Shown here in pieces: positions 25,636 through 38,936 of a stretch of 38,936 bases of DNA. Source of the stretch: Desulfobacterales bacterium CG2_30_60_27 (GTDB taxonomy: Bacteria; Desulfobacterota; Desulfobulbia; Desulfobulbales; CG2-30-60-27). A model generated the notes under the pieces. The model did not search any database. It was not told the origin of the DNA and saw only the letters and a list, made by a program, of their open reading frames with translations. Position 1 is the stretch's first letter, and the number at the start of each line of letters is the position of its first letter. The stretch is taken from contig MNYK01000098.1 of NCBI GenBank assembly GCA_001873115.1, forward strand, positions 1-38,936. Direction: 5' to 3'. The position numbers and the translations under genes are program-made.

Positions 25636-25769
25636 GTAACTATCCAGCGGAACCGCGGCACAGGTGAGTTCCCGGACGCCTCGGAGGCGGGCAGGACGCC
25701 CGCCGAGCATGAGCGCAAGACATTGCCAGCCCGGGAACGCTTGACTGCCGACACAAGCTGGATAGTTAC
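25636..25769. mobile_element. 134-bp MITE-like element, copy B, with 13-bp terminal inverted repeats
   Basis: GTAACTATCCAGC (25636-25648) and GCTGGATAGTTAC (25757-25769) are perfect inverted termini. The interior is non-coding and GC-rich, with an inner hairpin (GGCGGGC/GCCCGCC). The right ~96 bp match 53-149. It begins 11 bp upstream of the HDOD gene's start codon and may affect that gene's promoter. Confidence 0.8.
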
Positions 25770-34143: not shown

Positions 34144-34324
34144 GATCAGCCGGCTGCGTCTGCATGTGGCGCCAGCACCGCGGGACTGGCGGACTGAAGG
34201 CATCCGGCCCGAGGAGTTGGACTTGTTGTGCTGCGGCGCAGGTTCGCGGCAAGAGTTGTTAGGCGTTGCGCAAGGAAGGTCCAACCCCAGGCCCGCCAAG
34301 CGGGGGAAGCGACGCGTAGGCTGA
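34136..34324 (+). CDS. small ORF or truncated operon gene after the ExeA-like gene
   Basis: A GTG-initiated 62-codon frame overlaps the ExeA-like stop by 8 nt (VGKISRLRLHVAP...). Overlap and GC-rich codon use fit the host operon, but no family is recognised and the end (RPAKRGKRRVG) is low-complexity basic. It may be the 5' remnant of the next operon gene, cut off when the accessory island arrived. It may equally be non-coding. Confidence 0.3.
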   Translation: MGKISRLRLHVAPAPRDWRTEGIRPEELDLLCCGAGSRQELLGVAQGRSNPRPAKRGKRRVG

Positions 34325-34458
34325 ATCAGGTGGTCACTTCAGCAAATCAAACGGCGATAACCTTGAGATGCGCCTGCCTGCTGAGGGGTAAAAACTTTGA
34401 AACTCAAGAGCGATATATGCTCGCAAACGTCCTGCCGCGTTATTGAATCAGTTAATAG
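34144..34458. other. junction region between core operon and accessory island
   Basis: About 315 bp without a convincing complete gene. GC falls visibly from ~34380 onward. It contains the small ORF above, the 40-bp antitoxin relic (34338-34377), and then sequence leading into a transposase frame that has lost its 5' end. No inverted partner of the IS right end was found here. Confidence 0.6.
34338..34377 (-). pseudogene. relic of the 3' end of a HigA-type antitoxin gene
   Basis: These 40 nt are identical to 37881-37920, which hold the last codons and stop of the intact antitoxin gene. On the minus strand they read RQAHLKVIAV and stop. Outside the 40 nt the two sites diverge. It marks either an older toxin-antitoxin copy or a duplicated boundary. 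Confidence 0.75.
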
Positions 34459-35634
34459 TTAAGGTTTGACCCTCTTTCCCTGCTCTATGCGGCATCTGAG
34501 GCTAAAGTTCTTGGACATGGCGGCATATCGATCGTTCAGAAGGCCACTGGAGTGGCACGAGGCTCAATCAAGCAAGGGTTGAAGGAGCTCTTCCCTTCAC
34601 AGCGAACGGAAGCAGCAGGAGATGATGCCAGCCGGAGGATACGCCGCAAAGGAGGGGGCAGAAAGGCATCCGTTAAAGACAATGCGGAATTGCTCGCCGC
34701 ATTGGAAAGCCTGGTCGAGCCGGTCACGCGCGGCGACCCCGAATCTCCGTTGCGTTGGACCTGCAAGAGTTTACGACATCTGGAAGCCGAGTTGCGGTCG
34801 GAGGGGTATGTCGTCAGCCATACTTCGATAGGCGATCTGCTGAAGAAGTTGGGCTATAGCCTTCAGGGTAACCGCAAGACACTGGAGGGAGGTGATCACC
34901 CTGATCGTAATGCCCAGTTTGAGTTTATTAATACCCGAGCGGAAAATGCCATGCGTAATGGGCAGCCGGTAATTTCAGTTGACACCAAGAAAAAAGAGTT
35001 GGTCGGGCAATACAAAAACGGTGGAAAAGAGTTACGGCCAAAGGGGGAACCTGAACAAGTCAACGTGTATGACTTTGTTGATAAGGATTTGGGTCGAGCA
35101 AACCCTTATGGTGTTTACGATATAAGCAATAATTTTGGCTGGGTCAGCGTCGGCACCGATCACGACACGGCAAGTTTTGCGGTAGCCACAATACGCCGCT
35201 GGTGGTTTGGAATGGGCAAGGAACTCTATTCTGACGCCAAAGAGTTGTTAATCACGGCTGATGGCGGTGGTAGCAATGGTTCCTGTGTACGATTGTGGAA
35301 ACTTGAATTGCAAAAATTGGCCAATGAACTTGACATTCCTATTCGAGTCAGTCATTTCCCCCCGGGAACAAGCAAGTGGAACAAGATTGAACATCGACTG
35401 TTTTCTTACATCAGCATGAACTGGCGAGGGAAACCACTGGTTAGACATGAAGCGATTGTCAATTTGATTGCGGCCACCACAACCAGAAAAGGCTTGAAAG
35501 TGAAAGCAGAGCTTGACTCCAGTCATTATCCTACGGGCATCAAAGTCACAGATAAAGAACTCAAAACAATACGTATTTTACGTGAAGATTTTCATGGCGA
35601 ATGGAATTATTCAATCGTTCCAATCGAAAGCTAA
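34459..35634 (+). pseudogene. ISAzo13-family transposase, 5'-truncated
   Basis: The frame is open from 34459, after a TAG at 34456, to 35634 (391 codons). The first canonical start in frame is a GTG at 34552, well inside the conserved N-terminal region: codons before it read LLYAASEAKVLGHGGISIVQKATG, split here as LLYAASEAKVLG and GHGGISIVQKATG. Family members normally have about 25-30 more residues ahead of this. The DDE catalytic core looks intact: Asp in VISVDTKKKE, Asp in LLITADGGGSNG and Glu in KWNKIEHRLFSYI. No left terminal repeat was found, so the element has probably lost its left end. A start at 34552 would give a 360-aa product lacking part of the DNA-binding domain. Confidence 0.82.
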
Positions 35635-35637
35635 GTG

Positions 35638-35655
35638 TCCATGTTATTATTTTAC
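35638..35655. repeat. probable right-end sequence of the ISAzo13-type element
   Basis: TCCATGTTATTATTTTAC lies directly after the transposase stop and matches 38795-38812 (GCCATGTTATTTTTTTAC) at 16 of 18 positions. The second site abuts a truncated Y1 transposase gene, which suggests that both are ends of related insertion sequences. The exact IS boundary is not determined. Confidence 0.5.
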
Positions 35656-35666
35656 GGATCCTAAGC

Positions 35667-35673
35667 GTTGGGC
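35667..35673 (+). other. integron core site (GTTRRRY) at the 5' boundary of the R-M cassette
   Basis: GTTGGGC fits GTTRRRY. Integron recombination joins cassettes between G and TT, so the cassette would begin TTGGGCC at 35668. The left part of the site (an attC or attI) is not visible because IS sequence lies immediately upstream. Confidence 0.7.
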
Positions 35674-35688
35674 CGCTAGAAAATAAAC

Positions 35689-35716
35689 TTCACAATATCG
35701 CCCAATAGGGTATATT
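35689..35716 (+). promoter_or_regulatory. cassette-borne promoter, apparently giving a leaderless mRNA
   Basis: TTCACA (35689-35694) and TATATT (35711-35716) have a 16-nt spacer. The methyltransferase ATG follows only 7 nt after the -10 box, so transcription would start at or next to the initiation codon. No ribosome-binding site is visible. Confidence 0.55.
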
Positions 35717-35723
35717 CCTGCCT

Positions 35724-36596
35724 ATGAAACGAGAAAAAATCATACGGCCAAAGCCATTCAAGATCGACAGCCCTGTTATTTTTGAAGGGGATTCCTTGCA
35801 TATTTTAACAAGGATTCCATCTGAATCCGTTCAGTGCGTCGTGACATCTCCGCCATACTGGGGGTTGCGCGATTATGGCGTAGTTGGCCAGATTGGTCTT
35901 GAGACATCTCTGCACCAATTTATCAACAAATTGGTTGCGATTTTTTCTGAAGTTAAACGTGTATTAAAGCCGGATGGTATCTTGTGGTTAAACATCGGGG
36001 ACGGATACACGAGTGGCAACAGGGGATACCGCGCACCTGATAAAAAAAATCCTGCCAGAGCCATGTCAATTCGCCCTGATACACCAGAAGGATTAAAGCC
36101 AAAAGATTTACTTGGTATCCCATGGCGTCTGGCTTTTGCGCTACAAGATGACGGCTGGTATCTTCGCAGCGATATAGTATGGAATAAACCAAATGCTATG
36201 CCGGAAAGTGTAAAAGATCGTCCCATAAGATCACATGAATATTTGTTTATGCTAACCAAATCAGAAAAATATTATTACAATCACGAAGTTGTTAAAGAAC
36301 AAGGTGCCAATGGGAAATTGAGAAGTCGGCGCAGTGTGTGGGACATCAATACACAAGCATTCCCAGGGGCTCACTTCGCCACCTTCCCCCCCAGCCTCAT
36401 TGAGCCATGCGTCCTTGCGTCAACGCGCCAAGGAGATTTTGTGTTAGACCCATTTTTTGGTTCTGGTACTGTAGGCGTTGTTTGCCAAATTCACGACAGG
36501 CCATATGTCGGCATAGAATTACATTCAGAGTACGTTGCCATGGCAGCGGAGCGTCTCAGAGTGCTACACGACAACATCATACGGATAGCCATATAA
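35724..36596 (+). CDS. type II DNA N4-cytosine methyltransferase (Cfr9I/XcyI-like R-M system)
   Basis: This is a 290-aa beta-class amino methyltransferase. Catalytic motif IV is SPPY at res 42-45 (TSPPYWGLRDYG) and precedes the SAM-binding motif I DPFFGSGT at 242-249. SPPY is the usual form for N4-cytosine enzymes. It should protect the host against the endonuclease encoded next. The endonuclease resembles Cfr9I/XcyI, so the inferred target is CCCGGG; specificity cannot be read from this protein. Its stop lies 9 nt before the apparent start of the endonuclease frame, in the same reading frame. Codon use is AT-richer than the core genes, consistent with horizontal origin. Confidence 0.92.
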   Translation: MKREKIIRPKPFKIDSPVIFEGDSLHILTRIPSESVQCVVTSPPYWGLRDYGVVGQIGLETSLHQFINKLVAIFSEVKRVLKPDGILWLNIGDGYTSGNRGYRAPDKKNPARAMSIRPDTPEGLKPKDLLGIPWRLAFALQDDGWYLRSDIVWNKPNAMPESVKDRPIRSHEYLFMLTKSEKYYYNHEVVKEQGANGKLRSRRSVWDINTQAFPGAHFATFPPSLIEPCVLASTRQGDFVLDPFFGSGTVGVVCQIHDRPYVGIELHSEYVAMAAERLRVLHDNIIRIAI

Positions 36597-36605
36597 ACGA
36601 CATTC

Positions 36606-37568
36606 ATAAAAATTCCTCCTCCTGAACTTCAAATCGATTTTTCCTACGCTCTCGGTCAAATACGAAACACCTACCTCCAAGAAGCCTTAAGCAAAGCTGT
36701 TGACGCAATTGACATTTCTATCCTTGACCATCAACTTTCCGAACTTGTCCCGGCAGCAAGCTTAAAGGCATTGGCACGGCATGGACTTCGAGGCGAGCTT
36801 GTTTTTTCTGTCCCACATCTTCTTGAAAATTCTCCAAAATTAATTGCGTATTACCGTCTATTGTTGGGGTTTAGCCAAAAAGCATTTTATTCTTCTGACT
36901 TTGGTTTGTCTGGTTTCAAATCAATGGAGGGAAAAGGCTTTTTGTCTGCAAACACAAGGAAGCTATTGCCAGAGTTGTGTAACTCTTTAATTAAAAGTTC
37001 ATGCTTGCTTTTAGATGGTATCGGGACGGATAGAGTTAGCAAACAATTACTTGATGACCTCACATTACTTACGGTTGGCCCACAACTTAGAGGTGGCGCC
37101 AATGTTAGAAAAGGAGTTGTAGGAATAGTTAAAGTATTTGAAGCAATTCATAAAATTGTTAAGCGCGGGGCTACTCTTTCGTCTGAAAGTAAAATAGAGA
37201 CATTAAACGCTGCCGGACGAAAAGTTGTCATAGAATTCGCCCCCGATCCAGATATAGTAATTCGAGAGGAAATATCACCTCAGACATACAGAAATATCAT
37301 TGCAATAGAAGTAAAAGGCGGCACTGATTTCTCTAATATCCATAATAGAATTGGTGAAGCAGAAAAAAGCCATCAAAAAGCCAAGGCAAGAGGCTATGTA
37401 GAATGCTGGACCGTCGTTAACGTTGACCGAATTGATTTGCCAATGGCCCACCAAGAGTCGCCTTCAACCAATCGATTTTATCTTTTAAGCGATTTATCCT
37501 CTGAAAGCGCTGAGTACCAAGATTTCCGAGCAAGGATTATTTCTCTTACGGGAACAAAAGGGAAATAA
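36606..37568 (+). CDS. Cfr9I/XcyI-type restriction endonuclease lacking a normal start codon
   Basis: The frame encodes about 320 aa resembling the RE_XcyI family (CCCGGG cutters). Family-like segments are LQIDFSYALGQIRNTYLQEAL, given here as LQIDFSYAL and YLQEALSK, then GLRGELVFSVP, YYRLLLGFSQKAFY and LLTVGPQLRGGANV. The PD-(D/E)XK site is APDPDIVI followed by IAIEVKGG. The conserved N-terminus begins right after the methyltransferase stop, but its first codon is ATA (36606, ATA AAA ATT CCT), with no ATG or GTG in frame. The first TTG (36771) would remove ~55 conserved residues. Either a start codon mutated (ATG to ATA), a rare AUA/AUU start is used, or a shortened protein is made. The stop abuts the attC site. 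Confidence 0.87.
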   Translation: MKIPPPELQIDFSYALGQIRNTYLQEALSKAVDAIDISILDHQLSELVPAASLKALARHGLRGELVFSVPHLLENSPKLIAYYRLLLGFSQKAFYSSDFGLSGFKSMEGKGFLSANTRKLLPELCNSLIKSSCLLLDGIGTDRVSKQLLDDLTLLTVGPQLRGGANVRKGVVGIVKVFEAIHKIVKRGATLSSESKIETLNAAGRKVVIEFAPDPDIVIREEISPQTYRNIIAIEVKGGTDFSNIHNRIGEAEKSHQKAKARGYVECWTVVNVDRIDLPMAHQESPSTNRFYLLSDLSSESAEYQDFRARIISLTGTKGK

Positions 37569-37569
37569 G

Positions 37570-37624
37570 GCCCAACGAATAAGGTTAGATCACGCGAAGC
37601 CGTGATCTGAACCGTTTGTTGGAC
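37570..37624 (+). other. attC recombination site (59-base-element type, 55 nt)
   Basis: R'' is GCCCAAC (37570-37576, fits RYYYAAC) and R' is GTTGGAC (37618-37624, fits GTTRRRY). Between them, AGATCACG (37587-37594) pairs perfectly with CGTGATCT (37601-37608), and GGTT (37583-37586) pairs with AACC (37610-37613), leaving a single extrahelical G at 37609. The loop is CGAAGC. Paired R boxes, an imperfect inner stem and an unpaired base are the structural hallmarks of attC. No integrase or attI is in the window. Confidence 0.82.
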
Positions 37625-37803
37625 AAGCCCGGTGGTCATATTATAGAAAAGAGCTTTTGAGTCTGAGGTTGCCGAATCAGGTATGTGACCCGTTGCGAGG
37701 CGGGGAGAGGTGGCGGGATGCTCTTTGCTGAAGATTTTGTCTATTCATCGTTCTTTTGTGGCTGTTTTGAGGCGTTTTTCAGGCGCAACTGAGTTGGAAG
37801 TTG
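37625..37803. other. non-coding sequence between attC and the repeat-flanked toxin-antitoxin module
   Basis: No gene is recognised. The stretch follows a cassette-type start (TTGGAC at 37619), but no second attC with a GTCCAAC R'' box was found before the window end, so whether it is a further cassette is unclear. Confidence 0.5.
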
Positions 37804-37837
37804 TTGGAAGTTGGGGACGGTTGGAAGTTGGGGACGT
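37804..37837. repeat. two 17-nt tandem units
   Basis: TTGGAAGTTGGGGACGG (37804-37820) is followed directly by TTGGAAGTTGGGGACGT (37821-37837). A further partial unit lies at 37794-37803. The second unit begins the 61-bp direct repeat described next. Confidence 0.9.
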
Positions 37838-37882
37838 TCTTAACATTTAAAGTTTTACGCTCATGCCCAACCACTTTCATTT
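37822..37882. repeat. 61-bp direct repeat, left copy, flanking higBA
   Basis: Matches 38657-38717 with a single mismatch (T/C near the end). Both copies contain GGGGACGTTCTTAACATTT and GCTCATGCCCAACCAC. The pair exactly brackets the toxin-antitoxin genes, 835 bp apart. Confidence 0.95.
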
Positions 37883-37889
37883 CAGCAAA

Positions 37890-38219
37890 TCAAACGGCGA
37901 TAACCTTGAGATGCGCCTGCTGCCGTGAGCGGGGCATGGGTTTAATGGTGATCTGCACATCACGGCCAAGCGCATTCAGGAATTGGAGCAGCCGTTCCAT
38001 GGAAAAGCCTGACAGTTTGCCCCGGGTCAAGGCGGATACCTTGGGCTGGTCGATGCCGAGGAGTTCAGCGGCCTGGGTCTGGGTCAGACGGCGGCTGCCG
38101 ATAATGGCGAGGATCTGGCGGGCCAGTTCCGCCTTGGCGAGGCGTTCTTCGGCATCGGGCAGGCCAAGGTCGGCGAAAACATTGCCGCTGCCGTTATATA
38201 CTTCGATCTTTTCTTTCAT
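37890..38219 (-). CDS. higA: HigA-type XRE-family antitoxin
   Basis: This is a 109-aa protein starting at ATG 38219 with GAGGGG upstream; an in-frame GTG at 38225 overlaps the toxin stop. The XRE helix-turn-helix is clear at ~res 45-75: RRLTQTQAAELLGIDQPKVSAL. HigA-type antitoxins bind the HigB toxin and repress their own operon. The toxin gene precedes the antitoxin with a 5-bp gap, which is the order usual for HigBA rather than most other type II systems. The last 40 nt of the gene region recur at 34338-34377. Confidence 0.88.
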   Translation of the reverse strand: MKEKIEVYNGSGNVFADLGLPDAEERLAKAELARQILAIIGSRRLTQTQAAELLGIDQPKVSALTRGKLSGFSMERLLQFLNALGRDVQITIKPMPRSRQQAHLKVIAV

Positions 38220-38224
38220 GCTCA

Positions 38225-38590
38225 CTAGCCCCTCTTGCCGTGGTGCAGGCCTTCCGCTATTTTCAGGCGGGTTTTGATTTTCTCTATCTCTTCCTTCGGA
38301 GTGGTGATGCCCTGTTTCGATTTTTTCTGGAAAACGTGCAGGACGTAGACGGCATCGCTGAATCTGACGGTATAGACAGCCCGGTACGTATCCGCGCGGT
38401 AATCCTCGACGATTTCCAGTACTCCGGCGCCGGTGAATCCCTTCAGCGGTTTTGCGTCGGGGTGTTTGTCGCCAAGCTGGGCAAGATAGAGGGCAAAGCC
38501 GTAAGTATCCCGTACCTCTTCCGGCATGGACTTCATGTCCTTATGGCTGCTGCCTACCCATGCAAGGGGCTTTAAGGACTTGGCTGGCAA
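38225..38590 (-). CDS. higB: HigB-type (RelE superfamily, Gp49-like) mRNA-interferase toxin
   Basis: The product is about 121 aa. Signature segments of the Gp49-like/HigB2 branch are WVGSSHKDMKSMPEEVRD, HPDAKPLKGFTGAGVLEI, DTYRAVYTVRF and YVLHVFQKKSK. These toxins cut mRNA in a ribosome-dependent manner. The start is uncertain: the frame extends to a TTG at 38653, but a good promoter lies inside that extension (38597-38625), so the TTG at 38590 is preferred. It would lie close to the transcription start. No ATG occurs before the conserved domain. The module sits between two 61-bp direct repeats. Confidence 0.85.
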   Translation of the reverse strand: MPAKSLKPLAWVGSSHKDMKSMPEEVRDTYGFALYLAQLGDKHPDAKPLKGFTGAGVLEIVEDYRADTYRAVYTVRFSDAVYVLHVFQKKSKQGITTPKEEIEKIKTRLKIAEGLHHGKRG

Positions 38591-38596
38591 ATTTTT

Positions 38597-38625
38597 ATTA
38601 TGACAATTCTGGCATAATTGCGCAA
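38597..38625 (-). promoter_or_regulatory. promoter and likely autorepression operator of higBA
   Basis: On the minus strand TTGCGC (38625-38620) and CATAAT (38602-38597) are separated by exactly 17 nt. The -10 box is also one arm of an inverted repeat ATTATG/CATAAT (38613-38618 and 38597-38602), a plausible binding site for the HigA repressor. Confidence 0.6.
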
Positions 38626-38656
38626 GGTTTTTCTTCAACAGTGTCGGGAGCAAGGG

Positions 38657-38717
38657 TGGAAGTTGGGGACGTTCTTAACATTTAAAGTTTTACGCTCATG
38701 CCCAACCACTTCCATTT
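38657..38717. repeat. 61-bp direct repeat, right copy, flanking higBA
   Basis: This is the right-hand copy of the repeat at 37822-37882, same orientation, one mismatch. It begins just outside the toxin frame and is followed at once by a 17-bp inverted repeat. Confidence 0.95.
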
Positions 38718-38770
38718 AGGAGCCGTTACGAAATAACTTGGCCATTTATATTGATTTCGTTACGGCTCCT
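38718..38770. repeat. 17-bp perfect inverted repeat
   Basis: AGGAGCCGTTACGAAAT (38718-38734) and its exact complement (38754-38770) flank a 19-nt loop. It lies between the 61-bp repeat and the IS-end-like sequence at 38795-38812. It could be a small inverted-repeat element, an IS terminus or a hairpin terminator; the sequence does not decide. Confidence 0.85.
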
Positions 38771-38818
38771 TATGCCGCTCCAGTCAACTCGTTGGCCATG
38801 TTATTTTTTTACAGCGGC

Positions 38819-38936
38819 TTACTCCTCAAGAGCGCCGCCGTTCCCATTGCCACCCTCATGAGCCGGTTGCTGACCGGTTACGCGGTTTCGTGCAACCACC
38901 GCCATGGCCGACACGGCCACGTCTTTCAGAATCGCT
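38819..38936 (+). pseudogene. REP-associated (Y1/IS200-like) transposase, 5'-truncated and cut by the window end
   Basis: The frame reads LLLKSAAVPIATLMSRLLTG, YAVSCNHRHGRHGHVFQNR and runs off the window. This is the middle part of a RAYT/Y1 transposase, matching the usual HLLL..PIATLMRRLLTGYAVSFNRRH region. The expected upstream His-x-His motif and N-terminal domain are missing. Immediately before 38813 lies a sequence resembling the IS right end at 35638-35655, so an insertion probably removed the front of the gene. Confidence 0.75.

Follow-up and report, generated by a model that had tools for sequence, protein, structure and literature searches.

The window, by which we mean the whole stretch of 38,936 nucleotides analysed here (contig C36 of G000, a 2.5-Mb genome in 157 contigs), carries towards its right end an intact toxin-antitoxin (TA) unit. 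A 40-bp relic of the end of an antitoxin gene lies to the left of this unit, on the far side of an insertion sequence (IS) and a pair of restriction-modification (R-M) genes, which is where the sequence-only reading had placed it. The features of the region are, from left to right:

34329-34341, no strand: left-flank GGTGGTCACTTCA, which agrees at 12/13 positions with the start of the right backbone and overlaps the first 4 bases of the relic
34338-34377, minus strand: relic, with the final 28 coding bases of the antitoxin, its stop (34347-34349) and 9 bp beyond, identical to 37881-37920
34371-34377, no strand: microhomology junction CGCCTGC, which occurs in the antitoxin gene as well as in the adjoining element
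34371-34472, plus strand: mobile-element scrap of IS200/REP type
34473-35664, plus strand: ISAzo13-family IS, with a transposase reading frame at 34552-35634 and a right end reading ...TTTTACGGATCC(TAAG)
35667-37624, plus strand: type II R-M pair, with an N6/N4 methyltransferase at 35724-36596 and an XcyI-family endonuclease ending at 37568
37577-37791, no strand: truncated IS91-family end, including an attC-like hairpin
37819-37882, no strand: D1, a 64-bp direct repeat that represents the terminus of an IS200-like (Y1) element and directly adjoins the left side of the TA unit
37883-38653, minus strand: TA2, the intact HigBA-like TA unit, with the antitoxin at 37890-38225 and the toxin at 38225-38590
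38654-38717, no strand: D1', the second 64-bp copy, 62/64 identical to D1, abutting the TA unit on the right

In the intact unit, the toxin gene lies upstream of the antitoxin gene and overlaps it (38225-38590, then 37890-38225, minus strand). The toxin belongs to the Gp49 family (PF05973, E=1.5e-23 here and 3e-24 in the sister species) and has no solved relative by sequence. The antitoxin is an HTH_37 protein (PF13744, E=1.8e-29), which among solved structures matches 2o38 (E=2e-30) and, weakly, HigA2 of M. tuberculosis (7ewc, E=3e-4). The earlier label of HigA is thus a sensible one, and it is reasonable, from gene order and domains, to regard the pair as a HigBA-like type II TA system. Known HigBA modules are alike in their toxin-first order, gene overlap, Gp49 toxin and XRE/HTH_37 antitoxin, and they have the scattered distribution of horizontally moving genes that we also find here, with relatives of the antitoxin dispersed across deltaproteobacterial and cyanobacterial genomes. 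They differ from the relic, which keeps the last 40 bp alone. At the DNA level, sequences close to the TA unit were found in the sister species only, among 243 genomes of the order compared, and past the antitoxin stop only about TGATTT is common to the nearest relatives. The toxin gene starts at 38590 with TTG here and with ATG in the sister species.

The relic (34338-34377) and the end of the intact antitoxin gene (37881-37920) form an exact direct repeat of 40 bp, in the same orientation and at a spacing of 3543 bp, which confirms the base-for-base identity reported by the sequence-only reading, as well as the divergence on either side of it. Agreement is 43/44 when the repeat is extended leftward from 34334. 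In 20 first-order Markov simulations as long as the window, exact repeats reached at most 18 bp, against the 40 bp seen, and the repeat ranks second in length among the exact direct repeats of the window. Others, of 32 and 39 bp, lie at 52/25673 and 111/25731 (within 52-149 and 25673-25769). The repeat comprises the antitoxin stop codon (TCA at 37890-37892, equivalent to 34347-34349 in the relic), as had been noted, preceded by 28 coding bases and followed by 9 further bases. Past the stop, the relic agrees with the TA of the window (TTTGCTGAA) and not with that of the sister species (TTTTCTGAT), so that it is a copy that arose within this lineage. We rejected the possibility that the 40-mer is a widespread independent repeat, which would have cut its tie to the antitoxin gene: the genome contains two copies only, even with up to 3 mismatches allowed, its 31-bp core has no exact match in the viral contigs searched, and the matches in the order are to TA genes alone. 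Searches for an RNA family in the region gave none (best E=3). The relic is most likely functionless, and activity is not to be expected of it.

The edges of the relic are informative. Two independent comparisons place the left edge of the TA unit at 37882: D1, as delimited against D1', ends there, and the similarity with the copy of the sister species starts there. The start of the relic corresponds to 37881, within two bases of this edge; a random 40-bp patch of the TA unit would start there in well under 1% of cases. A start so improbable for a random patch makes the relic look like the end of another TA copy. On its other side, CGCCTG(C) is present in both parents of the junction; the relative of the neighbouring element in the sister species reads CGCCTGGCTGCTGAGGGG. 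Left of the relic, GGTGGTCACTTCA has a counterpart, GGTGGTCAGTTCA, in the right backbone (contig C103, reverse complement 1033-1045); the match of 12/13 was chosen after the fact, and is equalled by 1 in 1500 random pairs of positions. The two sequences, noticed in hindsight, are possibly a target duplication at the edges of an island. No significant match to the bases between the backbone and the relic (34302-34328) was found in the compared loci.

That the relic belongs to an island became apparent by comparison with the sister species (G001, a Desulfocapsa sp. MAG), the one other genome on which the comparison within the genus rests. It retains the AAA-ATPase gene and the following sequence up to the equivalent of 34301, where it diverges, and on the right side of the site a lipoprotein-like gene resumes at position 559 of locus L042. 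In G000, the lipoprotein-like gene is located on contig C103, the end of which overlaps the right end of the window (38624-38936) over 311/313 bp, with 2 differences, so that the contigs can be joined. Since C103 closes the right end of the window, the relic comes to lie at the left edge of an island of ~5.3 kb, from ~34302 to position 1028 of the reverse complement of C103, between the AAA-ATPase and lipoprotein genes, and is its leftmost recognisable piece. The equivalent site of the sister species has 188 bp only, and lacks the relic, the IS and the R-M genes; this is the comparison with a relative devoid of the R-M genes that had been suggested. Within these 188 bp (L042 371-558) lies what is left of a ParE toxin gene, its C-terminal part (E=3e-4, slightly short of Pfam's cut-off). 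A ParE remnant in the same intergenic site suggests that TA genes land and decay here. The full-length gene from which the relic would derive, also proposed as a search, was found at 37890-38225 in the window and at L043 4364-4699 in the sister species, where the TA unit is complete (96.6% identity over 762 bp) and lies elsewhere, behind a different gene. None of the genomes was found to have a complete TA at the exact spot of the relic.

The space between the relic and the intact TA unit is filled with pieces of mobile elements around the R-M genes. The scrap next to the relic is composite: 34371-34412 has a 91% similar counterpart in the sister species, where it lies downstream of a BrnT toxin operon (G001 C491), and the 25 bp at 34448-34472 are identical to a repeat found at the end of an IS200-like (Y1) element in G041. 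D1 corresponds, in inverted orientation, to the end of a Y1 transposase gene at the right side of the island. The ISAzo13 transposase is well above the curated threshold (NF033519, 537 bits for a cut-off of 200), and the element retains its right end, but its left terminal repeat and ~28 N-terminal codons are missing relative to the copies in G004 and G061; by this alignment it is a truncated member of its family. We considered insertion of this IS as the cause of the truncation of the relic and rejected it: the end of the IS is not at the relic, the IS is itself truncated in 5', and ~90 bp of scrap separate them. A MITE-like piece of ~115 bp at 38716-38830 has both terminal repeats of ISAzo13 type (TTAGGAGCCGTTACGAAATAACTTGGCCATTTA ... 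TTGGCCATGTTATTTTTTTACAGCGGCTTA) and an internal palindrome. Within the R-M pair, the frame of the XcyI-family endonuclease directly follows the TAA stop of the methyltransferase (36590-36615), without ATG, GTG or TTG at the expected start, and its next common start, TTG at 36771, would cost ~50 residues. In plasmid homologues of the pair, the genes overlap as ATGA; compared by eye, these homologues were of no help on the 3' flank.

Our results suggest that the HigBA-like unit probably had a second copy (TA1), of which the relic is the remaining 3' tail, the body having been lost at a microhomology join in the island. A mobile-element island would have entered between the AAA-ATPase and lipoprotein genes, with TA1 as its leftmost piece, either arriving with the island or duplicated within it. 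As elements piled up, TA1 would have been lost, except for its last 40 bp, by illegitimate joining at CGCCTGC to the IS200/REP-type scrap, and the truncated ISAzo13 element, the R-M genes, the IS91 end and D1 would have come to fill the space up to TA2. Tandem duplication of TA plus D1 may be at the origin of TA1 and TA2, as it would account for the arrangement D1-TA2-D1' and for D1 ending exactly where the TA begins; no TA copy has its right end directly to the left of D1, and this step therefore needs a further replacement. We directly observe that the repeats are identical and share a left edge, that a microhomology lies at the junction, that the site is empty in the sister species and that C103 closes the island; from this we infer a TA1 that was formerly complete here. 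The idea that an ancestral TA gene was destroyed by the island thus survives in part: a TA copy was probably lost, but what remains of it is the island's own leftmost piece rather than a part of the host backbone. A stretch of 40 bp is too short to be dated.

The perfect 40-bp repeats that flank 34378-37880 could also be thought of as a recombination boundary, as the sequence-only reading had offered. The present TA would then be the sole copy ever, and a 3.5-kb molecule with a 40-bp TA tail, made of the scrap, the IS, the R-M genes, the IS91 end and D1, would have recombined into it by homology, leaving the tail on both sides. A swap of partners at the repeat would indeed yield an intact TA and a circle of 3543 bp, and XcyI-type R-M genes do exist on small plasmids. 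Yet, the segment is devoid of replication or transfer genes, and the TA tail of the circle must have been joined to the scrap beforehand, at this very microhomology, which again calls for a second TA copy. The pre-fused tail is what the model leaves to be supplied, and we regard the model as unlikely, less likely than the survival of a TA tail. Another alternative is a templated insertion, in which a break-repair polymerase used the nearby TA tail as template for 40 bp and then switched templates, with never a second TA at this place. The small size of the relic fits such a patch, as do the short microhomologies at both its ends (CGCCTGC on the right and a weaker TCA-TTCAG on the left), but the patch must then start by chance within two bases of the outer edge of the TA, which makes this explanation quite improbable.

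The sequences are contigs of MAGs, without reads, and an assembly artefact of the metagenome bin might be invoked, given that neighbouring contigs end in 64-bp repeats and that C103 and the window differ at 2 positions of their 313-bp overlap. This is very hard to reconcile with a backbone that continues undisturbed to the left and right and agrees with that of the sister species, and with the length of the repeat, because the k-mers in final assembly steps are usually longer than 40 bp.

The survival of a TA tail makes 34338-34377 a real but ordinary TA remnant, a genomic scar, and the relic carries no novel reading beyond this. It resembles the degraded or solitary TA remnants of genomic islands in being a truncated gene end amid mobile-element debris, and the sister species has such a remnant, of ParE, at this site too; the relic differs from them by the intact parent-like copy 3.5 kb away and by a left edge that falls on that of the unit. 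It documents one decayed TA copy and allows the events in a small defence island to be put in order, which is little by itself. The TA units have here moved with sharp edges, and TA genes have gathered in the same intergenic site in both sister species.

The hairpin 3' of the R-M genes (GCCCAAC GAATAAGGTTAGATCACGCGAAGCCGTGATCTGAACCGTTT GTTGGAC, 37570-37624) has the form of an integron attC, folds with z=-4.6, and is the only candidate in the window. A candidate 5' core, GTTGGGC at 35667, is complementary to R'', and the R-M pair is possibly an integron-type cassette (35668-37618), as far as these motifs indicate. A second GTTGGGC occurs by chance inside the transposase gene (0.18 expected per 3 kb). 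No integron integrase was over the cut-off in G000 or G001, and 21 of the 38 genomes searched have one. The hairpin belongs to the IS91-family end: the same 67 bp are found, with 100% identity, in G035 behind a different upstream sequence, and the copies in G003 adjoin an IS91 transposase (342 bits for a cut-off of 125), the sequence left of AAC being unrelated between copies. The R-M pair remains a candidate cassette, because the hairpin is part of the IS91 end and the 5' core could be due to chance.

Hairpin-like matches are dispersed in the order (64 of 258 genomes, none with a reversed control pattern). RYYYAAC stands at the left of 15 of the 46 distinct copies (~3 expected), a count that is only indicative since copies are not independent. 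With the same dependence between copies, an exactly complementary GTTRRRY lies within 1.5 kb upstream in 8/15 of the RYYYAAC copies (1.3 expected) and in 5/26 of the others (2.2 expected). These loci are 37570-37791 of the window and L170-L176, L183, L184, L191, L199, L200 and L210-L239. Some copies adjoin integron integrases (G019 C162). The formation of gene cassettes was still an open question in a 2021 review (PMC8618304), and group IIC introns have been proposed as their makers (as cited in PMC7923331). A further route, which we put forward tentatively and hold to be rather doubtful, is that an IS91-family element whose end hairpin is attC-like inserts behind genes of an ordinary kind, here the R-M pair, and supplies their attC. 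The literature searched gave no paper on an IS91-derived attC, which does not disprove that one exists. The resemblance of IS91 ends to attC could make the origin of new gene cassettes testable. The hairpin sometimes closes apparent gene cassettes, with an exactly complementary 5' core near the start of the gene, and elsewhere adjoins an IS91 transposase without a cassette. In G003, a gene encoding a Xer/IntI-like tyrosine recombinase (L209 4367-5128) adjoins the IS91-family transposase.
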